Virus record (IMG/VR): IMGVR_UViG_3300013132_000128
Span: 1-34,606 of that record
Strand: one strand, 5' to 3'
Length of the DNA: 34,606 nucleotides
Source of the DNA: a virus
The notes under the pieces are model-generated. The model did no database searches, was not told where the DNA came from, and was given only the letters and a program-made list of their open reading frames with translations. Each line of letters begins with the position of its first letter. The first letter of the stretch is position 1. Of the stretch, positions 3,598-34,152 are shown in pieces. Position numbers and translations under genes: made by a program.

Positions 3598-3710
3598 TTG
3601 ACTGGCTCAAAAAAATGTACCGCGATTGGCAGTGGCGCAGACAGAACGAATGGGCGCAGGTGCCACCGCCTGATTGGTCAGCGAAACGCGGTGGGAGGGA
3701 GTACTGGTGA
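3594..3710 (+). CDS. very small Trp/Arg-rich protein, 38 aa
   Basis: The ORF starts ATG at 3594 inside an ATGA overlap with the upstream gene and ends TGA at 3708-3710, overlapping the next GTG start. The product has six tryptophans and about ten Arg/Lys in 38 residues, with a Pro-Pro-Pro in the middle and REYW at the end. It has no hydrophobic membrane stretch. Start/stop overlaps on both sides, matching the spacing used through this operon, are the main evidence that it is a gene. Its function is unknown; an amphipathic peptide binding nucleic acid or membrane is possible. Confidence 0.6.
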   Translation: MIDWLKKMYRDWQWRRQNEWAQVPPPDWSAKRGGREYW

Positions 3711-4876
3711 AATCATTAAACGACATCTACCAAGATGGACTCAAACTTCTTGAGCAGGACAAGTGCGACGAGGCTATCCCTCGCTTCGACGATATCATCA
3801 AGTTGCGTCCGCTCCTTGCCGGGGCGTATGTGCAGCGGGGTCGGTGCCATTGGGAAATGCGACGTTGGGACTTGGCAAAACCTGACTTCGAGAATTGCCT
3901 GATGCTTGATCCAGAAAACCCAGATGCCAAGTGGACGACGGGCCTGATTGAGTTGCAGTTGGGAAACTTTGAGCGTGGGTGGATGCATTACGAGAACCGT
4001 TGGGACACCGACACATTCCAGTCACCCCGGCTCAAGACTCGGCTCCCATCGTGGGAGAAAGGCAAAGGCTATAAGTCTGTGTTGGTCTGGTGCGAACAGG
4101 GCGTGGGCGATCAGTTGCTCTACGGCAGCATGTTGGGTGCGCTGAAGAAAGAGACTGAGAAGGTCACGGTGATGATCGATATTCGACTGATGAATCTTTT
4201 CCAACGCGCCAATCCAGATATTAAATTCATACGCCACGACAGTCGGGTGAACAACGCCGAGTACGACTCGCAGATTCCGATTGGCAGCGTGGGTAAACAT
4301 TTCATTAACGATGTCGCTGACATCAAGAAGCATCGGTCTGTCGGATATGTTTATCCTGATCGCAGCCGATTGGATCATCTGACACACGAGTTGGCGCTGC
4401 AACCGGATGACTTCGTGATCGGTATATCTTGGGCAAGCACGGCTCCGCGCATCGGTGAACACAAGAGTGTGAAACTGGAGGAGTTGGTAGGACTTTGGGA
4501 TATCCCGAACGCCAAGATCGTAAGCCTGCAATACGGCAAGCCTGATCACGACATCGAACCGTTTGAAGAAAAGACTGGCAAGATTGTTCGCCAGACGACG
4601 GTCGGTAACTTCTTTGACTTGGAGGGCGTGGTCGCAGCGATGTCACTGTGCAACGCCGTGGTATCCGTGTCGAATGCGAACGTGCATCTGGCAGGAGCCT
4701 TGGGCGTACCGACGTACGTGCTTGATGCCAACAAGTTGTGGTATTGGAATCATAAGGAAGGGCGAACGAGCCTTTTCTATCCGACAGTTAACCTTTACCC
4801 ACGCGACTATTTGAACGCGCCGTGGGATGCACAGATTGCAGAGATCATCAAAGATATTAAGGAGCGACGAGCATGA
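3707..4876 (+). CDS. TPR protein with glycosyltransferase (GT9-like) domain
   Basis: I start at GTG 3707, inside a GTGA overlap and preceded by GGGAGGGAG. Residues about 4-105 hold tetratricopeptide-like helical repeats (for example AGAYVQRGRCHWEMRRWDLA and a LDPENPDAKW turn). From about 115 the protein resembles the glycosyltransferase domain of bacterial TPR-GT proteins: WCEQGVGDQLLYGSML (EQGVGD 130-135), a GISWAS strand near the middle, VSVSNANVHLAGALG near the end, and a final YPTVNLYPRD block. Homologues usually have Asp where this has Asn in the SNANVHLAGA loop. Such enzymes transfer sugars from nucleotide donors; a GT is unusual among replication genes. Acceptor and donor are unknown. 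Confidence 0.8.
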   Translation: MKSLNDIYQDGLKLLEQDKCDEAIPRFDDIIKLRPLLAGAYVQRGRCHWEMRRWDLAKPDFENCLMLDPENPDAKWTTGLIELQLGNFERGWMHYENRWDTDTFQSPRLKTRLPSWEKGKGYKSVLVWCEQGVGDQLLYGSMLGALKKETEKVTVMIDIRLMNLFQRANPDIKFIRHDSRVNNAEYDSQIPIGSVGKHFINDVADIKKHRSVGYVYPDRSRLDHLTHELALQPDDFVIGISWASTAPRIGEHKSVKLEELVGLWDIPNAKIVSLQYGKPDHDIEPFEEKTGKIVRQTTVGNFFDLEGVVAAMSLCNAVVSVSNANVHLAGALGVPTYVLDANKLWYWNHKEGRTSLFYPTVNLYPRDYLNAPWDAQIAEIIKDIKERRA

Positions 4877-15518: not shown

Positions 15519-15543
15519 CCCCCGGTTCGCCGGGGGGATTTTT
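15519..15543 (+). terminator. rho-independent terminator of the + strand block
   Basis: CCCCCGG (15519-15525) pairs with CCGGGGG (15530-15536) across a TTCG tetraloop, followed by GATTTTT on the + strand. The seven G-C pairs and T-run make a strong terminator for early transcripts. On the - strand the same hairpin follows the stop codon of the giant ejection gene, but the downstream bases read TAAAAGG, with no U-run, so it should not be an efficient intrinsic terminator for late transcripts. Confidence 0.88.
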
Positions 15544-18500
15544 ACTCCAGTTCTTTTTCAACCCCTAGTTCGCCATAGATCTTGCGAGCAAGTCTGGGGT
15601 TTACGTTTACGCCGTTTACTGACTGCATCAGGCTCTTCTTACGGCGTTCAATCGCGTTAATAAGGGTATCGGCAGTGATTGGATACTGCGGGTTCCTGCG
15701 GCTAAATTCCAAAGCCTCTTGCTTGGCTTCATTAAAGCCTTCCATATCCCCACTTATCCGCGCTATAGCCGCACGAGTAATGATGGAGTTACGCTTTTCA
15801 AGGATTTTGCTTTCAGCGCGTTTGACAGCCCCTGCAATATCTCCAGCTTCTGCAACTTCGCTTGGACGGAAACCGAACACTTGCATGAACACGTTGTAGG
15901 CGCTGATATCTTCAACCAGCGGTTTGCCACTGGCGGTTATGGCTCCTTCTTCTGCATACCGCAAAGCTTTTACGGTATTACCCATAAAGCGCGGAGCTAG
16001 CTGCTCAAACGCTCGGTTGTATTGTTCGTTCTGCATGTACTCAAACGCCCGTGGGACGCCTACTGCATACGAGTACGCAGGTCCAAGCATCTGCTCCATG
16101 GCATAGGTAACAGGACCGACTTCGGCCATGCGCTTTGGATCTTCACGCCAGAACATGCCAGTCCAACCTGTACGACTCGCAATGTCTACGCCCAACAAAT
16201 AATTGACTGGGCCTTTATACGCAAACAACCCTATGGCTTCGCGCATAGCAAAGTCAGGATTAAACGGCTCGTCGTCATCGCCAAAGATCCCGTTGAGCGC
16301 CGTGGCAAGAAGCGTAGCAGCCCCAACCATCGGCATACCTTGCGCGCCAGCCGTAATAAACGCCGTGCCAAAGTACCCAAGAAGTTCTTTGCGCGCAGCC
16401 TCACGCACAGCAGGATCTGGCTCAATATCCCGTGCTTCGCGCATTGCACTAACGAGCAGGTTGACGCGAGTAATAGCAAATCGTTTGAACGTCAAAGCAG
16501 TGCGGGCAAGTTGATTGCCCATAATGGGCGGACCTGCTTTGGGGAACGACGACCCATATACGTCGTAGACTGCGCGTTGGGCTTGTTCAAAAGCCTTTTC
16601 GTCAAACGTGCCTTCGGGGGTTTTCTTGGCAAGATCGTAGGCTGCAGCCAACGTAACCTGTCGGTTGAAGGTATCTGACTTGGCAAATGCCCAGTTGGTC
16701 AGGCGCTCGACACGTCCCTTCATCTCCAGATACTTGGACCCCCTGTCCTTGAATTCAGCCAAGTCCCGCAACTGCTGCTCACGGAGCACACCAGAGTTCA
16801 GCCCCTGTTCAATCAGCATCTGCATCTCAGGAGATTTTTGCTTGCTAAAGAACGTTGAGGTGGCTTTGCTGATGGAGTTGAACGCCTTACCAAATCCGTA
16901 TTTGCCGCCCAACCGACTCCACGTAACCGTTGGAATATCAAGCGTGTTGACGATAGCTGTTGAGATGTTGGCACCCAGATACATCTGATAACTGAAGTAC
17001 CCCACTTTGGCAGCGAGGTTATTCATGTTCGGGTTACGAATGTACTCAAGCTGCTTGTCGGCAATCGAAAGCAAATCCCCAGCTAAGACCGAGTCAAGGC
17101 GATTCTGATCAACCGCAGACATCAAATCTGCTTTCAAATCTTCATTGTGCGCGCTGAACTTGGGCATGTACTCCATATTGACGAGCCTACGCGAGTAGCT
17201 GTCTGCCACGTTTGCGTAAGCCTCAAGCACGTTGCTGGAGAAGCCCGCCGTTCCTTCGCGGCGGCGTGATAGTTGAAGAACAGAGTTAGAGGGGAGGTAG
17301 TCCAAATACGTATCAACAATAGAACGAACTACGTCTCTGTCTACGCCCGCCTTAGTCAACGTGCCAACAACTTCACCAAAGAACCCAGCGGACGGAAGCG
17401 TGTCTGCTTCTTTTGTACCAAGCGTGGATTCACTAAAGTCTTTGGCACCGCTACGCTGTGCTTCTAACCGAGCAAGTTTGCGCTGGTTTGGATTTTCAAA
17501 TTGGCGGGCTACGTATTCGCCACCTTTGTCCGTGTAGGTAAGTTTGTAATTGCCTTTGCGGAACAATGGCAGGTATACAGGCACTCGACGCTTGTTAAAT
17601 TCATTCAGCATCTTCTGCCATTCGTTTGGCGTCATGTACTGCTGAAGCAGCTTCTCCATCTGCAGGGAGTAGTCCAAATAAGACAGACGGAGTTCTTTAT
17701 ATAACTGCTGTACTTCCGGCTTCAAGTTTGAGAATTGCCGATACACCGGACTGTCTTTCTTGGCAACCCAATTAATGTTTTTGCTTGGATCAACCAAATC
17801 CAAAACTTCAACTTGATCAACGGTCGTGTCCATGAAGATCTTATAGATGCGATCCCGTTCAGCATCGCTGTACGGTTCCATGATCTTCTGCCATTTCTGG
17901 AAGTTGTTCTCAATCTTCTCCTGCTGCTTACGCAGAACAACACCTTCACGGTTTACATCCGTCCACCAGTTGCCGAGCGCCTTCGTGTACTTGCCATACA
18001 TCCGGTCAAGCTCGTGCAGATTCAGCATGCTGTACAAGCCTTGGCGCATTGAAGACGGCATCTTGGACGCAGCGTCTACGGCGTTGCTGTACGTGTCTTT
18101 GGCTACTGCAGGCAGGCTACTGGGAATCTTGCCGATGGAATTGACGAAGCGGCGATCATTGTCTCGCTGCTCAGTTGGGGTCATGGAATAACGTGCTGCG
18201 TCGTCAAATGGAGTTCCTGCTACCGGACTCTTTGCGCTTTTCCAAGCCTCTGCTGATCCCGGCCCCATGGCATCAAGGAAGTCTTTGACAGACTTGGCAG
18301 GTACGAAGCGATTACCAGTAAGTTTGGCAACAAACTCGCGTAGTTTTTTAGCCAGATCGGAGAAGAACTTTTCAACAATGCCAACAGGCTTTTCGCTAGT
18401 GGTCGCCCATTTAGAAGTGTTGTCTGCAAACCATTCTCCAAACGAACGCCAGTAACTATTTTCTGCAGCCAGTTTGGTTTCGGGAGTTTTGCCTTCAGCT

Positions 18501-21500
18501 TGTGCTTCTGCTGTTTCTCGATTACGCAGTGCACGGATAAGGTCAGACCCCTTCTTGCCTTGGGTTTCTTTCAACCACGCTTCGTATTCCGCACGGATGG
18601 CAGCTTTTGTTTCAGCCGGTGCGTTGTTGTATGCAACCTGTTCAATTAAATGTCCAAGCTCGTGAGCAATAACTTCAACCGTACGACCTTCAGACATACC
18701 GGGCTTAACGGATATGTAAAAGTCTTTTAGGTCAGCACCGTATGGACGCAACGAACCATCTTCACGGAAATCAAGTCCAGCAGAAAGCGCGGAAGAGTAA
18801 GTTCCGTACAGTTTGTATTTGTCTTTGTTGCCCCGAACGTCTTCCGGATGGAACAGGAATACGCGAATATCCCCCAATCCCATGGACTTTGTGAGGCTAC
18901 GCAAGAAGTTGGCGTAATTTGGATTGACGGTTTCAGAAGCAACCACATTGGAAGTAGCCCCAGCAAATGGGCCTTCTGGATTTGCTTCAAACTTAGCCTT
19001 ATCTTCAGCAACAATTTTATTCTTGGCTTCGATAAGCCGCTGCTTTTGTTCTGGCGAAAACAAACTGCCGATAAAGTTTTCGATATCTACGCGAGTACGG
19101 CTACCGGTTTTACGGTCAACGGCCATGTAGACATTTTGGCCAGACAGTCTGCTAGATCCGCGCACTAAGGCAGTATCAGGGTCTGAATAAACGACTTCGC
19201 CGCCTACATCTGGTTCAAACTTGGTAGCCCATTCCGGATGCACTTTGGGTGCAGGGGCAGCAGGAACAGCTTTCTCTTCAGCCTGACGTAGGAACGCATC
19301 GGCGGCGTCTTCAGCCTCCCGATCTATACCGGCCAACGGAATACCACGTTCTTTCTTTACGCTTGGAGGAGCCTTAGATCCGCCAGTTCTTTTATAAAAG
19401 GCAGCAATCTCTTCGTCAGTAGCATTCTCGCTAAGACCAACCGTAGGCTCTTGCTTGACGGGTGCTGGAGTAGGCTTAGCAACAGTAGGTGCAGGTTTAG
19501 CACGAGCAGTAAGTTTGTTAATTACAAGCCCAAAGTTAGGAACAGGCTTTTTTAGTTCCTGAATAATGTTGTTGTAAGTAGCCTCACTAATGGCATTCTT
19601 CTCAAAAGCATCAATTGCTTGAGTCCGCAGAGCCGTTCTGCGATTAGATACTTGTTGAATTGCATCACGAGCAACACGTTGTTGAGTAGCACGACGTTCT
19701 TCGTCTACCTGCCGCCCAAGCATCAGCACCTGCTCACGCAGGGTCATTGGCGGCTTTTCTGTTAGTGCAGGCTCACCCGCTCCTTCTCCAACATCAGATC
19801 GTGTAGGAGTCTCGCCAGTAGCAACCACTCCCGGCTCTCCAGTTGGAGTAACTGTGGGTTCTTCGGTTCCTGATGGTTGTACAGGCACAGCAGCCCTTCT
19901 TCCAAGGCGCGCAGATCCAATTCGTTTACGAGGCGTGCGTACACTTTCCGCTCCTGCGGGAGTCAACTCCCATTCATTTGCCTTCTTGTTGAACGCAATT
20001 GCTTTCTCTTTCTTGAGGTCGCCAAGCGTCCTTAACAACTCCATCGGACGCAATTCAGTCGCAAACTGAAGGTTGGGAATGTTCTTCTTGTCTTCCGTAA
20101 TTGCCATCGCCCGCAACACACGGTCACGGGGGGTAAGCCGAGCCATCGGAATACCGGGCAGATCAAGCGAAAACTGCTCTTCAGGAACTTCTACCGTAGG
20201 CACTTCAACCGTAGGCTCTTGCCGTGTGAAGGGCACAGTTGGACCCGGCGGTATGGGTTCTTGTGCAAACAAGTCTCCCTGTCCTTCGAACGGAGCAGGC
20301 TGCATAAGCGGCAACTGCTGCTGCGCCTCAAACTCAAACCGCTCTTGATCCGGTGATACTTGTGAAGTTATGTCAGGAACAAACTGGTTGGGTTTGAGAT
20401 TGCCCTTGCGGTCCAGCTTCAAGCCAAGGTCTTTGGCTTCTTCTTTATACGCACGACTGCGCGGCGCTAGCCCAGCAAGAGCATCTTCTGCCGGACGGTA
20501 CATTCCCGGTATCGCTTCACCCGGCTCACTAGGAGCAAGCAGATCTAACTGTGCGTATCCACCAGCAAGCGGCAGACCTATCTGGTCTTCTTCGCCAAGC
20601 GGACGGCGACGAGCCTCATCTCTAGCGCGCAGGGCAGCGTCGTACTGGGCAAGATACTCAAGGTCATCCTTGCTGGCTTCCTCGCGTTCTTGATTCTCAA
20701 TGGCTTGCTTTAGCCGCTCATCCTGCGTGGCAAGGAACCGCAATTCTCTAGCCCGTCGCTCTGTAGCCTCACGTGGGCTGACTTCTTCAGCAGGTGCTGC
20801 AGGTGCGGCTTCCCTTGTCGGTGACGCTGCTTCTGCTGCCGCAGGTGCTTCAGGTTCAGTAACAGCCGGTTCTTTTTCAACCCTTTCAGGTGGCGGCTCA
20901 ATGCCGCGCAGACGACGACCAAGTGCAAGTTCTGAAATAGCACCAATCACGGCACCCGCACCGCCACCCAATTGAGCAGCTTCGCCCACCCCGCCAAATA
21001 CGGCTTCTTCGGGCTTGTATACGCCCTTGGCAATGAGGTTCTGGAGGACTTGGCTGCTGGCTTCTTGCAGGGCTTCTTCGCCACCTGCTTGGGCTACACG
21101 CCGAAGGGCTGGAACAAACCCAGCGACTTCCCTTACCGCGTCGTCTCCAAAGCCAAAACGACGAAGGATACGGATTGGCGCTAATGCTTCAAAAGCACCG
21201 GGGATGGTACCAAGCGCGGTTGATACGCCACGTTCGCCTTCTGTAGTGCCTTCCTGTTCGGCTCTTTGACGGGCCTCACCTGCACCAGCAGATACACCCA
21301 GCCCAGTTGCTGCAACGCGCCCAGCCGCACCCAGTGCGCCAAGCGGAAGGAACGGAATGGTTGAGCCTACCGCCTCACTTAATTTACGAACCGTTGTATC
21401 TTCATACCCCGGCGCTGGGGCAAATTTCTCACGCACCCCTGCTGCAAATTCTTCAACAGGTCTACGCACCGCCTGTTCCGCTTCTTCAGGTAGCAGTGCC

Positions 21501-21715
21501 GCAGCACCCGTAATTGCAGTCTCGCCCAGCCCAACAAGACCCGGCACCAGCCCCTTCAGGGCTTCCTTGGCGTAACCACCGATGGTGCGTTCTTTTTTGG
21601 GTTCAACGTACCCGGCTTGTTCTCGGATGTACTTAGCAAGAACCTTAGCGGACTCAACATCGCCCGCAGCATCGGCTCTTTCCAAAGCCCGATAAACATC
21701 TTCCATCGTGGCCAT
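15542..21715 (-). CDS. giant probable ejection protein with HELGH metallopeptidase domain, 2057 aa
   Basis: Start ATG at 21715 is preceded by AGGTAGG. The N-terminus (MEDVYRALERADAAGD) matches a short helical motif common in phage virion proteins. Residues about 40-270 are Gly/Ala-rich with amphipathic helices suited to membrane insertion; Pro/Glu-rich stretches follow. HELGH at 1018-1022, with Glu1094 in GEWFAD as likely third ligand, marks a zincin-type peptidase. The C-terminal third is helical, with a hydrophobic Gly-rich segment near 1777-1810, and resembles the large polyvalent protein type. It is probably packaged and ejected with the DNA, where the peptidase may act on wall or host proteins. 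The target is unknown. Confidence 0.8.
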   Translation of the reverse strand: MATMEDVYRALERADAAGDVESAKVLAKYIREQAGYVEPKKERTIGGYAKEALKGLVPGLVGLGETAITGAAALLPEEAEQAVRRPVEEFAAGVREKFAPAPGYEDTTVRKLSEAVGSTIPFLPLGALGAAGRVAATGLGVSAGAGEARQRAEQEGTTEGERGVSTALGTIPGAFEALAPIRILRRFGFGDDAVREVAGFVPALRRVAQAGGEEALQEASSQVLQNLIAKGVYKPEEAVFGGVGEAAQLGGGAGAVIGAISELALGRRLRGIEPPPERVEKEPAVTEPEAPAAAEAASPTREAAPAAPAEEVSPREATERRARELRFLATQDERLKQAIENQEREEASKDDLEYLAQYDAALRARDEARRRPLGEEDQIGLPLAGGYAQLDLLAPSEPGEAIPGMYRPAEDALAGLAPRSRAYKEEAKDLGLKLDRKGNLKPNQFVPDITSQVSPDQERFEFEAQQQLPLMQPAPFEGQGDLFAQEPIPPGPTVPFTRQEPTVEVPTVEVPEEQFSLDLPGIPMARLTPRDRVLRAMAITEDKKNIPNLQFATELRPMELLRTLGDLKKEKAIAFNKKANEWELTPAGAESVRTPRKRIGSARLGRRAAVPVQPSGTEEPTVTPTGEPGVVATGETPTRSDVGEGAGEPALTEKPPMTLREQVLMLGRQVDEERRATQQRVARDAIQQVSNRRTALRTQAIDAFEKNAISEATYNNIIQELKKPVPNFGLVINKLTARAKPAPTVAKPTPAPVKQEPTVGLSENATDEEIAAFYKRTGGSKAPPSVKKERGIPLAGIDREAEDAADAFLRQAEEKAVPAAPAPKVHPEWATKFEPDVGGEVVYSDPDTALVRGSSRLSGQNVYMAVDRKTGSRTRVDIENFIGSLFSPEQKQRLIEAKNKIVAEDKAKFEANPEGPFAGATSNVVASETVNPNYANFLRSLTKSMGLGDIRVFLFHPEDVRGNKDKYKLYGTYSSALSAGLDFREDGSLRPYGADLKDFYISVKPGMSEGRTVEVIAHELGHLIEQVAYNNAPAETKAAIRAEYEAWLKETQGKKGSDLIRALRNRETAEAQAEGKTPETKLAAENSYWRSFGEWFADNTSKWATTSEKPVGIVEKFFSDLAKKLREFVAKLTGNRFVPAKSVKDFLDAMGPGSAEAWKSAKSPVAGTPFDDAARYSMTPTEQRDNDRRFVNSIGKIPSSLPAVAKDTYSNAVDAASKMPSSMRQGLYSMLNLHELDRMYGKYTKALGNWWTDVNREGVVLRKQQEKIENNFQKWQKIMEPYSDAERDRIYKIFMDTTVDQVEVLDLVDPSKNINWVAKKDSPVYRQFSNLKPEVQQLYKELRLSYLDYSLQMEKLLQQYMTPNEWQKMLNEFNKRRVPVYLPLFRKGNYKLTYTDKGGEYVARQFENPNQRKLARLEAQRSGAKDFSESTLGTKEADTLPSAGFFGEVVGTLTKAGVDRDVVRSIVDTYLDYLPSNSVLQLSRRREGTAGFSSNVLEAYANVADSYSRRLVNMEYMPKFSAHNEDLKADLMSAVDQNRLDSVLAGDLLSIADKQLEYIRNPNMNNLAAKVGYFSYQMYLGANISTAIVNTLDIPTVTWSRLGGKYGFGKAFNSISKATSTFFSKQKSPEMQMLIEQGLNSGVLREQQLRDLAEFKDRGSKYLEMKGRVERLTNWAFAKSDTFNRQVTLAAAYDLAKKTPEGTFDEKAFEQAQRAVYDVYGSSFPKAGPPIMGNQLARTALTFKRFAITRVNLLVSAMREARDIEPDPAVREAARKELLGYFGTAFITAGAQGMPMVGAATLLATALNGIFGDDDEPFNPDFAMREAIGLFAYKGPVNYLLGVDIASRTGWTGMFWREDPKRMAEVGPVTYAMEQMLGPAYSYAVGVPRAFEYMQNEQYNRAFEQLAPRFMGNTVKALRYAEEGAITASGKPLVEDISAYNVFMQVFGFRPSEVAEAGDIAGAVKRAESKILEKRNSIITRAAIARISGDMEGFNEAKQEALEFSRRNPQYPITADTLINAIERRKKSLMQSVNGVNVNPRLARKIYGELGVEKELE

Positions 21716-21723
21716 TAGAAAGC

Positions 21724-23502
21724 CTACCTGACGTATTTATTAACGATGCCTAAAATATTTGACGGAATAGGCGATTGAGGCGCGATTGCTGCGGGAACTC
21801 TTGCTCCTCCTGCGGACATTAGATTTGCTCTAGCTTCAGTTACACGAGCCTCGGCAATAGCAATCTCTTCAGGGGTGCCTATAGTGCGAGCCACTTTGAG
21901 TTCATCTGCGGCGTCATCGAGGGCAGCTTTGTACACTTCCACGTTCAAGCCACGCTCTCTAAGCCCGCGTTCTTCTTTACGCTCGGCACCGCGCTCTCCA
22001 CGCTCCAACCTGCGTTCTTCAAGCTCCATGCCCGCAATCTGCATTTTCTGAGCAAGTTCAGCACGATTAAGTTTAAGTTGCTCAGACCGGGCAGTAAGGT
22101 CCGAAATGTTGTCTGCACGCTTCTCTTCAAATGCACGTTGAGCAACACGCTCGCCACGTGCCACCTCGTCTTGATACCGACGAAGCGAAGCCATTTCTTT
22201 ATTAAGCTCGCGCTCGGTTTGCTTCAATTCTTTCTGAGTAGCGTTGTACTGCTGCAGACCACCAATGGCCCCTTCAGCCAAAGCTCCAAGTCCAGTCGTA
22301 CGTTGCCGCCCAGCACGGGCAGATGCTGCAGCCCATTCAAACCCAGCTTTTGCAAGAGCCATACGAAGAGAATCTTGTTTGTCTTTATCTAATCCGCTAA
22401 TTGCTTTTTCAATACGTTTCTTCTCTTCGCCTGAAAACGTATCTGGGATTGACTCAAACTTACGCCCACGTTGCTCTGTAATTAATTTAGCGAACGGATC
22501 TGTAGCCCCACCTGCCGAGGCAGCCCCTTGTCTTCCAGTAGTCAAAGCAGGCGCTCTGGGGACATCTTGGCGAACATCTTGTCTGGCACGACCAATAGCC
22601 GTGTCAAACGCGCTACCTGCCGCAGCACTACTTGAGTACGGGCTTGTTGCTCCCATAGGAGGAACCGCGCTTTGTGCTTCTGCAGCCTGAGCAGGGGAAG
22701 CATTAATTCTTTCTGCAATTGCTGAACTGGCTTGGGCAAATCTTTCCGGAGTATCTGGAGACAGTCTACGCACCATAACCCCAGAAGATGGAACTTCTTT
22801 TAACCCACCAATTCCTGCTAACGAAGCGTCACTACGCCGAACCTTTCCTTGTTCGTCATACATGTAGGCAGGAAATTTACGCGAATCAAATTTAAACGCT
22901 CCGCCTGTTGGAATGCCTTGCTTAACCAATTCAGCATAACGGCTCAAGTATTCTTGAGGAGCAACATAACCCGTGCGGCGCAAAAACTCATCATAAGCAG
23001 CTTTTGCTATATCCCGATTTTCATCGTTTGCCAAAGTACGAAGTTGTTCAGTAGACATCTTGGTGAAATCAATTTCTTCACCAAATCCACCACCTTGGAA
23101 AGCAACGATGCCACCGCTCGCAAACTGCGGGTATTCCATCAAACCAGCGTCGATACCGCCAAGCCCACGACTCATGGGATCTTGCATCTCTGGGTTGTAA
23201 CTTGTAGGGCCACCGTACCCAAGCGAGCCACCGCGCCCGCCTCGCTGCTGCATCTGTTGCTGCTGATCTATCATGTTCAACTGATCTTTAATTGTCGGCG
23301 GTGTTTGTGGCGGCTGAACCTGTTGCTGCTTCAGTCGCTGAAACTGATTCATCATCGCGTACAAGTCTGCAAGAGGCGCAACACCTTGTGTCGCCATGCT
23401 TTTCACATATTGCACTGCTTGTTCAGGTGGCATCCCTTTGGCAATAGCCTGCTGAAGCGAGGACATCATTGCACGACCCGTGCCGCTGACTGGACCGATC
23501 AT
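21724..23502 (-). CDS. probable internal virion protein with long coiled coil, 592 aa
   Basis: Start ATG 23502 overlaps the upstream stop as ATGA. The N-terminus is helical and rich in Met and Gln; Gln runs occur near 57-86. The segment FASGGIVAFQGGG (127-139) is a short motif that recurs in phage virion proteins, and a related form occurs in the 1206-residue protein upstream. Residues roughly 400-520 form a long coiled coil with many Glu, Arg and Lys. The Ala/Gln-rich helical character and the place between other ejection-type proteins suggest an internal core or ejection protein, like gp15 or gp14 of T7 in role. I see no enzymatic site. Confidence 0.7.
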   Translation of the reverse strand: MIGPVSGTGRAMMSSLQQAIAKGMPPEQAVQYVKSMATQGVAPLADLYAMMNQFQRLKQQQVQPPQTPPTIKDQLNMIDQQQQMQQRGGRGGSLGYGGPTSYNPEMQDPMSRGLGGIDAGLMEYPQFASGGIVAFQGGGFGEEIDFTKMSTEQLRTLANDENRDIAKAAYDEFLRRTGYVAPQEYLSRYAELVKQGIPTGGAFKFDSRKFPAYMYDEQGKVRRSDASLAGIGGLKEVPSSGVMVRRLSPDTPERFAQASSAIAERINASPAQAAEAQSAVPPMGATSPYSSSAAAGSAFDTAIGRARQDVRQDVPRAPALTTGRQGAASAGGATDPFAKLITEQRGRKFESIPDTFSGEEKKRIEKAISGLDKDKQDSLRMALAKAGFEWAAASARAGRQRTTGLGALAEGAIGGLQQYNATQKELKQTERELNKEMASLRRYQDEVARGERVAQRAFEEKRADNISDLTARSEQLKLNRAELAQKMQIAGMELEERRLERGERGAERKEERGLRERGLNVEVYKAALDDAADELKVARTIGTPEEIAIAEARVTEARANLMSAGGARVPAAIAPQSPIPSNILGIVNKYVR

Positions 23503-24533
23503 GATGATTTACTACCTCCAAGCCCACCAAACAGACTGCCTAGCCCCAATCCTACGCCAGCAATCTGCCCAAACAAACTACCCGGCTGTTGATACAAAGT
23601 TTGCGTTTGGCCGGTAGCCGGGATACCCCGCAAGATACCCATACCAAACTCAGCCTGCTTGTACGGAAATTGCTGTTTGTTGATGAACTCTTGCAACTGC
23701 TGATTAAGCAACTGCTGTTCCAAAGCTTGCATCTGACCGCCAGCACCAAGTTGAGCACTAGTAATGCCCATACCCTGTTGGTATTCCTGCATACCAAGCC
23801 CGCCCAATGCCCCCGCCGCAGCCAATTGCTGTTGCAGACCCTGCAGCCCAAGCCCAGCGCCAAACTGCCGAGAGGACTCTGCCAACTGCTGCCCAGCTAG
23901 TCCGTACTGAGCACGAAGTTGAGCATCTTGAGCAGCCTGTTGTGCAGCCTGCTGATACGCCTGCTGAAGTCCCGTGGCCTGAATACCCTGCAACTGCCCT
24001 TGCAGATTACGCTGTGCCTCAGATTCCATCAGGGCTTGGCGCGTACCGCCCAACGCCCCGGCACGAGCAGAAGTAGCACGAAGCCCCGGAATCTGACGAG
24101 CATAGTCCTGAACCGCTTGGCGCTTTTGCTGCTCAACAACGCCCTGCATATAAGGCGACATATACGGTTCTAGCCCACCTTCTCGTAAAAAAGGCGAACG
24201 GTAATACTGTTTACGGCGCAGGGGGCTGTATTGGCTTAGTTCACCTGCCCGCATTCCAGCCAAAGAAGCAAGCCCTGAAGCAGCCCCAATTTGCGGGGCC
24301 ACTTGCATACCTGCCGTGGCTTCAATCGCTTGTTGCTGGAGGGGGTTAAACGCCGCGACAGTCTGTCCACGGTATGGCTCGTAGCCTTGACCGATCAAAC
24401 CGGGAATAAATGTTCCGCTTGTTGGGTCTACCCCACCAAACACGTTTCCTAGCAGTTGCTGAGCATACGGCTCGGCAAACTTCGGAATGGTTGAACTAAT
24501 CTGGGTTTGTTCTACAGGTTCTGCAGTAGCCAT
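23499..24533 (-). CDS. probable internal virion/ejection protein, Gln/Ala-rich, 344 aa
   Basis: Start ATG 24533 has GGGAG nearby upstream. The protein is Gln-, Ala- and Gly-rich and mostly helical. Residues 126-176 (SPYMQGVVEQQKRQ, then SARAGALGGTRQALMESEAQR) match a segment I know from phage proteins thought to be ejected with the DNA. The C-terminus (321-344) is a glycine-zipper-like stretch (LFGQIAGVGLGLGSLFG), which could insert in a membrane to form part of a channel for DNA. By size and nature it is a fair analogue of T7 gp14, though similarity of sequence is not claimed. Confidence 0.7.
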   Translation of the reverse strand: MATAEPVEQTQISSTIPKFAEPYAQQLLGNVFGGVDPTSGTFIPGLIGQGYEPYRGQTVAAFNPLQQQAIEATAGMQVAPQIGAASGLASLAGMRAGELSQYSPLRRKQYYRSPFLREGGLEPYMSPYMQGVVEQQKRQAVQDYARQIPGLRATSARAGALGGTRQALMESEAQRNLQGQLQGIQATGLQQAYQQAAQQAAQDAQLRAQYGLAGQQLAESSRQFGAGLGLQGLQQQLAAAGALGGLGMQEYQQGMGITSAQLGAGGQMQALEQQLLNQQLQEFINKQQFPYKQAEFGMGILRGIPATGQTQTLYQQPGSLFGQIAGVGLGLGSLFGGLGGSKSS

Positions 24534-28173: not shown

Positions 28174-28767
28174 TCACAGATTCACCGCCGAGACCCATGT
28201 TACCGTGATGATAACCGAAGGGATTTCGGGAATATTGCCTGTTGCAGCCTCGGCCAACAAGACCGTGCCGGTGCTTGGGGACTGCCAAACAATCTCAAAA
28301 TAGTCGTTAGCCGCGAGGGTCAAGACCCAGTTCCAAGCCGCGACTTTCTCATCATTGGGGCCAGCAATCACAACCTTGGTAGCCGAGTTCGGGACGTTAA
28401 TACCGTTGATCCGAATCCAGATATAGATCGTGGTATTACCGCCGCCCACATGGTCAAGCTGGGCTGAAAATTGTATGTTGTATACACCCGTCTGCGTGAC
28501 GTAGACCCGAGTTGTTTCTTTTTTGACGGCATACACGGTATCTTCATCGTAAACACTATTAACCTGCATCAGATTAACGGCATCAGCGACTGGATTAGTC
28601 TGCGTTGTGGTGTCGTAGAACGAACCGTGCGGCACCGGGGCATTGACCTTGTTGGTCAACTGCGTAAAAAACAAACGCAGTATGCTTAAGAATTGGTTCT
28701 GATACCGCTGATCGTACGCGGTCGGCCCCACAGGTAGGTTTGGCGCTGCGACGTTATTGTTAGCCAT
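28174..28767 (-). CDS. jelly-roll (C1q/TNF-like) structural protein, 197 aa
   Basis: The ATG at 28767 overlaps the upstream stop (TAATG). The first 50 residues are polar and look flexible or helical (YQNQFLSILRLFFTQLTNKV), followed by beta strands of a jelly-roll type: TGVYNIQFSAQLDH, then IYIWIRINGINVPN and DYFEIVWQSPSTGTVLL. The TGVYNIQFSAQ and NDYFEIVW strands match the way C1q/TNF-like domains appear in phage fibre or decoration proteins. It is likely a trimeric tail or capsid accessory protein, possibly binding a receptor. It lies between the hub gene and the ejection genes. Confidence 0.7.
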   Translation of the reverse strand: MANNNVAAPNLPVGPTAYDQRYQNQFLSILRLFFTQLTNKVNAPVPHGSFYDTTTQTNPVADAVNLMQVNSVYDEDTVYAVKKETTRVYVTQTGVYNIQFSAQLDHVGGGNTTIYIWIRINGINVPNSATKVVIAGPNDEKVAAWNWVLTLAANDYFEIVWQSPSTGTVLLAEAATGNIPEIPSVIITVTWVSAVNL

Positions 28768-33495: not shown

Positions 33496-34152
33496 CTACG
33501 CCGCTATCGGGGTCCAGATATCGGTATCCCCCGTGCTAATTGGTGTCCACGGACCAGTCGGTACCGGGATAATCTTACCCCAAACGGTGACTTGCCCAAT
33601 CGCTCCTGTCGCTGATACACCCGTGACAAAGACCACGGCATTACCCGTGACTGTGACTGTACCCAGTTCGCCTGTGGCCGAAACCCCGGTGACGGGGATA
33701 TCAATACTAATCGCAACTGTGACCGTGCCAAGTTGCCCAGTAGCCTCAACTCCGGTGACAGGAACGACCGCTTCGCCTGCAACGGTGACAGTACCGAGTT
33801 GGCCTGTGGCTTCAACGCCCGTGACCAAAGTATTGGCATCAGCCGCGACCGTGACAGAACCAAGTTGACCTGTAGCCTCAACTCCTGTGAGGAGGATATT
33901 AGCAGTGCCTGTAACTTCGACCGTGCCAACCTGCCCTGTGGCTTCAACGCCCGTAACAGGAACATTGGCTTCGCCAAAGACAAAGACCGTGCCGATCTGA
34001 CCGTTGGCTTCAAGCCCTGTAACAAGGACGTTGGCATCTGCAACGACAAGGACTGTGCCGACAAAGCCTTCAGCCTGTACCCCTGTGACCGCAACCGCGC
34101 CTTCCCCAAGTGCAGAGAATGGAGCAACGGAAAAGGGGACAAAACCCAGCAT
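33496..34152 (-). CDS. 22-residue tandem-repeat protein, probable virion protein, 218 aa
   Basis: The start ATG 34152 lies three bases after the upstream stop and has no clear ribosome site, so translation is probably coupled. After a 21-residue hydrophobic head, eight tandem units of exactly 22 residues (22-197) follow the pattern VTGVEATGQLGTVTVaadANvp, then a 21-residue tail with GPWTPIS and IWTPIAA. Alternating Val and Thr with regular Gly fits a repeated beta-strand/turn, perhaps a beta-solenoid or fibre. Placed beside the S74 fibre and the MAHFAEID protein, it is most likely a structural or decoration protein. I know similar repeats in aquatic phages, without assigned function. Confidence 0.78.
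   Translation of the reverse strand: MLGFVPFSVAPFSALGEGAVAVTGVQAEGFVGTVLVVADANVLVTGLEANGQIGTVFVFGEANVPVTGVEATGQVGTVEVTGTANILLTGVEATGQLGSVTVAADANTLVTGVEATGQLGTVTVAGEAVVPVTGVEATGQLGTVTVAISIDIPVTGVSATGELGTVTVTGNAVVFVTGVSATGAIGQVTVWGKIIPVPTGPWTPISTGDTDIWTPIAA
33562..34089 (-). repeat. eight tandem 66-bp coding repeats
   Basis: The DNA encoding residues 22-197 of the repeat protein consists of eight 66-base units, aligned with no gaps and no frame change. Units 3 to 6 (residues 66-153) are most alike and the outer ones have drifted, as expected after internal duplication. Because the period is a multiple of three, copy gain or loss keeps the frame. Confidence 0.85.

Follow-up and report, generated by a model that had tools for sequence, protein, structure and literature searches.

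We identified a giant protein in a 34,606-nucleotide stretch of viral DNA (IMG/VR record IMGVR_UViG_3300013132_000128, positions 1 to 34,606; the whole stretch is referred to here as the window) that is, with little doubt, a phage-type large polyvalent protein in the slot of an ejection protein. At its centre lies a zincin-like metallopeptidase domain. The kind of protein itself is already known; what is new is an obligate, single zincin, the class of which is exchanged on one carrier. Taken as a whole, the observations are best explained by a polyvalent ejection-slot protein with a zincin that cuts in cis, an account to which we give close to an even chance of being right.

The open reading frame spans positions 15542–21715 on the minus strand and comprises 2,057 codons with an ATG start. 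The earlier note on this DNA had located it exactly, with its strand unstated; the frame is real, and the plus strand of the region is filled with stop codons. The window, 34.6 kb long, is a linear fragment, and the head and packaging genes therefore lie outside view. A search of GTDB genomes with the conserved N-terminal module (N-module), aimed at a prophage or host, found none, and a tblastn search of a phage collection gave no isolate with this module.

The protein consists of recognizable modules, all encoded on the minus strand. The N-module is conserved and Gly/Ala-rich (residues 60–262; positions 20930–21538). Among 21 members of the N-module family, 18 match phrog_10691 and 13 match phrog_2206, a virion RNA polymerase profile. 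The N-terminal part had been described as carrying membrane-active Gly/Ala regions; the richness is there (34% G+A in residues 40–262), but the membrane activity finds little support in a single weak hydrophobic peak (residues 56–75, Kyte–Doolittle 1.43). Alignment also reveals a strongly conserved stretch amid the variable N-terminal linkers (about residues 530–600; 19916–20128), which is winged-helix-like as judged by eye and possibly DNA-binding. An exchangeable cassette follows, delimited by its replacement between two relatives (about residues 830–1190; 18146–19228), and holds the zincin-like domain (residues 925–1165; 18221–18943). Behind it lies an LPD39 (PF18858) region (residues 1211–1358; 17642–18085), for which the full-length protein scores 18 bits and the isolated region 24.1 bits, just below the Pfam cut-off of 27. 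LPD39 is matched at E ≤ 0.01 by 10 of 14 family members (best relative, 6e-17), and LPD38 at 95–117 bits by four relatives that share the N-module. The C-terminal module (residues 1375–2050; 15566–17593) is common to giant DarB-like/PLxRFG podophage proteins, and residues 1368–2044 match the C terminus of DarB-like giant proteins in PHROGs (phrog_10089, E = 2.6e-55). Besides the zincin, the LPD39 region and the N- and C-terminal modules, Pfam and PHROGs searches found no second enzyme in the window protein, and no methylase, helicase, ART or polymerase.

The zincin motif HELGH occupies residues 1018–1022 (18650–18664) and is the putative source of two zinc ligands and the general base, with Glu1094 in GEWFADN (18434–18436) as the candidate third ligand. 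Both elements had been pointed out in the earlier note and are present and conserved. Composition predicts about 0.0016 occurrences of HExxH in this protein, which has 6 His per 2,057 residues. In a domain alignment of nine class members with identities down to 43%, H1018, E1019, H1022 and E1094 (H163, E164, H167 and E239 in the alignment numbering of the window sequence) are invariant. HELGH is kept in four of five full-length IMG/VR relatives; the fifth, L005, has another motif. Ratios of dN/dS for the zincin are about 0.09–0.12 (four pairs) and, by this measure, the region is under purifying selection. The window class (HELGH...GEWFAD) falls below the Pfam threshold and has a weak PHROGs match (phrog_87, E = 4e-4).

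An AlphaFold2 model of residues 856–1195 has modest confidence (pLDDT 66.6, pTM 0.67) and orders the domain as a helix (77–89), strands (96–100, 135–137 and 143–147), a helix bearing HELGH (154–176) and a helix bearing E239, that is, E1094 (237–250). A model of an alternative-class zincin has the same order of helices and strands. Foldseek returned no significant PDB match for either modelled class, and neither did a PDB search by sequence. In a BFVD fold search, the well-scoring matches were to polyvalent proteins from uncultured phages (E = 5e-7 and 8e-5) and to uncharacterized phage proteins; SprT-like and lethal-factor-named matches were weak. The predicted order of helices and strands is that of a zincin and, as the PDB gave no fold match, the fold is supported rather than proven. 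We read the central domain as an intact zincin-type metallopeptidase site on a predicted fold, and as a likely active peptidase.

The domain might instead serve packaging, unfolding for passage through the tail or regulation of the C-terminal half, with its peptidase activity incidental or lost. Such a structural or regulatory role is possible because the corresponding region of the N4 virion RNA polymerase (vRNAP), which holds the metallopeptidase (MPTase), is required for encapsidation (PMC5512222), and the N4 C-terminal domain restrains the polymerase with no cutting seen (PMC12633501). Pure structure, however, does not need the four catalytic or ligand positions that are invariant across the nine diverged class members, nor the H, E, H and distal E that are likewise invariant in 17 class-2 members. 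We consider this role improbable.

A scan for the N-module by short peptide patterns gave 295 loci; the best 80 were kept. The census proteins are mutually related. Among these best 80 of 295 loci, each of the 57 unique complete IMG/VR N-module proteins (57/57) contains exactly one HExxH or HExxxH motif, compared with about 0.01 expected by composition, whereas only 2 of 198 other open reading frames of at least 450 aa at the census loci contain one. In most of the 57, 40–90 residues separate the motif from a downstream Glu in an E-x-x-A-like setting, and the motif at the cassette place is always zincin-like. The distance from the motif to the C terminus is near-constant (medians of 1,041–1,065 in the three largest classes, z1, z2 and z3), whereas the N-terminal side varies from 739 to 1,734 residues. 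Three N-module proteins (L118, L150 and L151; 3,076–3,150 aa) have about 1,000 extra residues, mostly before the zincin; in L151, Pfam detected LPD38 alone and the extra residues had no match. At L156:13570-21978 (MinM2, OQ594354), the syntenic slot holds a 2,803-aa protein annotated as RelA/SpoT, which contains LPD38 (5e-35) and two HExxH motifs and weakly matches ART-PolyVal.

The 73 cassettes placed on the N-module tree fall into five clusters that are not linked by BLAST: z1 (35), z2 (24), z3 (10, including the window), z4 (2) and z5 (2). On this tree, which was built by a quick method and has many branches with support below 95, class changes at least 21 times, against a minimum possible of 4 and a mean of 32 after shuffling. 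The nearest N-module to that of the window (L043, 86%) accompanies class z4, whereas the window has z3, and zincin class is not bound to one type of C-module in the N-module proteins. Profile comparison links z1 to z2 (94%) and places z4–z2 at 52%; z3 and z5 are unlinked (z3–z2, 35%). Within z1, HExxH forms (HEVFH and HELFH) occur beside HExxxH forms (HESLGH and HEVGAH), which suggests from the motifs that the active-site helix gains or loses one residue within this family.

The clearest case of exchange is the pair L004 and L005. Their chains are 95–100% identical over most of their length and 87–89% identical in parts of the N-terminal region, and the zincin regions share 18–24% identity, the motif of L005 being HESLGH...EEILAE. 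In nucleotide sequence, similarity is absent along about 1.1 kb, between flanks that are 97.4% and 89.6% identical. As read from these alignments, the zincin cassette is replaced between near-identical phages.

Exchange of this kind could reflect a host-directed effector: the ejected zincin would cleave a defence, envelope or regulatory protein of the host, and classes would be exchanged as host targets differ. The excess of at least 21 changes over the minimum of 4 on the N-module tree, the cassette replaced between near-identical phages and the purifying selection on the domain (dN/dS of about 0.1) all favour this explanation, and polyvalent MPTases have been suggested to act as effectors (PMC5512222). 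The earlier note's idea that a host defence, wall-linked or transport protein is cut would be a case of this and may hold. Of the roles considered, a host target accounts best for the exchange of classes; it leaves the obligate presence unexplained. A payload in an arms race would be expected to be missing sometimes or to be swapped for other enzymes, whereas a single copy is obligate in 57/57 census proteins and zincin-like domains alone are seen at the cassette place; moreover, the effector has no known target. We regard a host-directed effector as a real possibility that falls well short of even. A narrower version, in which each phage would inject one metallopeptidase on the common carrier and its class would be replaced against a host-variable factor, seems rather unlikely; by analogy it may be likened, with the same reserve, to swapped toxin tips, except that the swapped part is always a protease.

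The genomic setting of the gene agrees with that of an injected protein. The polyvalent gene is the last in its operon, after a gene of 1,206 aa, a DNA ejection protein of 344 aa (23499–24533, minus strand; phrog_4287, E = 1.4e-10) and a gene of 592 aa (21724–23502, minus strand) that has, as judged by position, the place of the tunnel protein N4 gp51 or T7 gp15. This order matches N4 gp52, gp51 and gp50. The proposal of an injected giant protein with many domains is supported, and the gene sits in the ejection-protein slot. From its operon position and its relatives, we infer by analogy that the protein is in all probability carried in the virion: JC1 gp69, a DarB-like protein with LPD38, was identified in virions by 51 unique peptides (PMC9144972), and N4 gp50 enters the virion and is ejected from it (PMC12633501).

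Three further proteins of the window merit mention. A 197-aa protein of the virion region (28174–28767, minus strand) has a weak match to the BclA C-terminal domain (E = 1e-3) and is possibly jelly-roll or C1q-like and receptor-facing. A 218-aa protein (33496–34152, minus strand) consists almost wholly of degenerate repeats, each about 24 residues long (VTGVEATGQLGTVTV), and has no PHROG match. Among the replication genes, a 400-aa protein (3674–4876, plus strand) appears TPR-like by eye in its N-terminal part and weakly matches phrog_36377 in its C-terminal part (4e-9).

The adjacent and co-oriented genes of the operon would also suit processing in trans, in which the peptidase matures neighbouring structural proteins, as the earlier note had suggested. 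We compared identity of the immediately upstream gene with zincin class. Pairs of different class keep upstream genes with identities of up to 87% (L004/L005, 87%; L155/L143, 76%), whereas same-class pairs can diverge to 28–30% (L127/L143, 30%). Binned by N-module identity, the comparison gives uncorrected P values of 0.02–0.25, at most a weak trend. Similarity of the neighbouring gene thus shows no clear dependence on zincin class. This makes it unlikely that the protein encoded just upstream is processed by the zincin, and we give trans processing in general very little weight.

We place cis proteolysis only slightly ahead of a host target, with a chance that is itself below even. The protein, in the slot of the N4 virion RNA polymerase or T7 gp16, would be carried in the head and ejected along with the DNA. 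The zincin stands at the start of the C-terminal half, the length of which is nearly constant, and follows an N-terminal half that varies in length. It would cut its own long chain near the cassette, either during packaging or after entry; the cut would separate the two halves. Cis processing explains why the zincin is always present, single, of one enzyme type and at a near-fixed distance from the C terminus. P1 DdrB, which has an MPTase, is processed and provides a precedent (PMC5512222). Against cis cutting, N4 gp50, despite its HExxH domain, is packaged without being processed (PMC5512222), and it has been purified without degradation (PMC12633501). The explanation as a whole is also strained by the lack of a PDB fold match for either modelled class and by the window class, as z3 joins the other classes weakly (35% to z2). 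Because the chains of L004 and L005 are near-identical outside the cassette and their zincins look unrelated, any cut site would need to be generic or to fall within the cassette. As substrate, neither the virion protein encoded just upstream nor a site particular to one class outside the variable part of the chain is likely.

Zincin domains occur in several injected phage proteins, and the N4 vRNAP has an HExxH domain. Their possible roles are narrowed by the present family, which always keeps exactly one zincin, freely exchanges its class on the same carrier and gave no match to an RNA polymerase, and the L004/L005 pair amounts to a natural cassette-swap experiment.

Among known systems, the closest in kind are the large polyvalent proteins of phage type that Iyer et al. 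(2017) described. No domain is commoner in these than the zincin MPTase, which sorts into 12 clades and includes HEXXXH variants (PMC5512222). The window protein resembles these proteins in being giant and multidomain, with LPD38 or LPD39 on the C-terminal side and an HEXXH/HEXXXH zincin with a distal Glu; it differs in that no methylase, helicase, ART or polymerase was detected. We also considered kinship with a characterized peptidase family. Dipeptidyl peptidase III (MEROPS M49) has HExxGH followed by a Glu-Glu motif, which class-2 cassettes (HESLGH...EEVLAE) resemble at the level of the motif. This likeness is one of relatives and not of the window class, and PDB searches gave no sequence or fold match to M49; the kinship, considered from the motif, was left unproven.

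N4 gp50 (Schitoviridae) is an ejected virion RNA polymerase; its N-terminal domain binds lipid, and it also has an HExxH domain, C1 (PMC12633501), with HELVH at residue 2228. It shares with the window protein the last place in the ejection operon, an N-module alike at the profile level, and an HExxH domain followed by a large C-terminal part. In hhalign, where reversed-sequence controls stayed below 0.4%, the N-module family matches the gp50 N-terminal domain (74%, E = 2.7e-5) and class z2 zincins match C1 (93.6%, E = 2e-7; hmmsearch against one sequence, 2.8e-11). Window class z3 is not significantly linked to C1 (2%), and the C-module has no link to N4 C2 (0.06%). No T7-type RNA polymerase domain was matched, the one contact being the weak N-terminal match to the virion RNA polymerase profile; we therefore set aside the identification as an N4-like virion RNA polymerase. 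The profile matches and the operon order together point to an N4-vRNAP-like carrier in which a polymerase was not found.

The C-terminal half leads to the DarB-like/PLxRFG proteins. An identification as a DarB antirestriction protein was rejected, as methylase and helicase domains were not found and the C-terminal module alone is common. These giant proteins differ in length (3,000–5,000 aa), and JC1 gp69 further differs in its transglycosylase, methylase and helicase matches and in having LPD38 with no C-module detected. The group (JC1 gp69, Skulduggery gp28, LASTA gp01 and Vibrio 12A4) otherwise has in common with the window protein a C-module with HExxH/HExxxH upstream. By tblastn, the C-module occurs in podophages of about 60 kb, downstream of such a motif, and the order zincin, LPD39 and C-module is explicit in Vibrio phage 12A4 and Pseudomonas phage Rollin.
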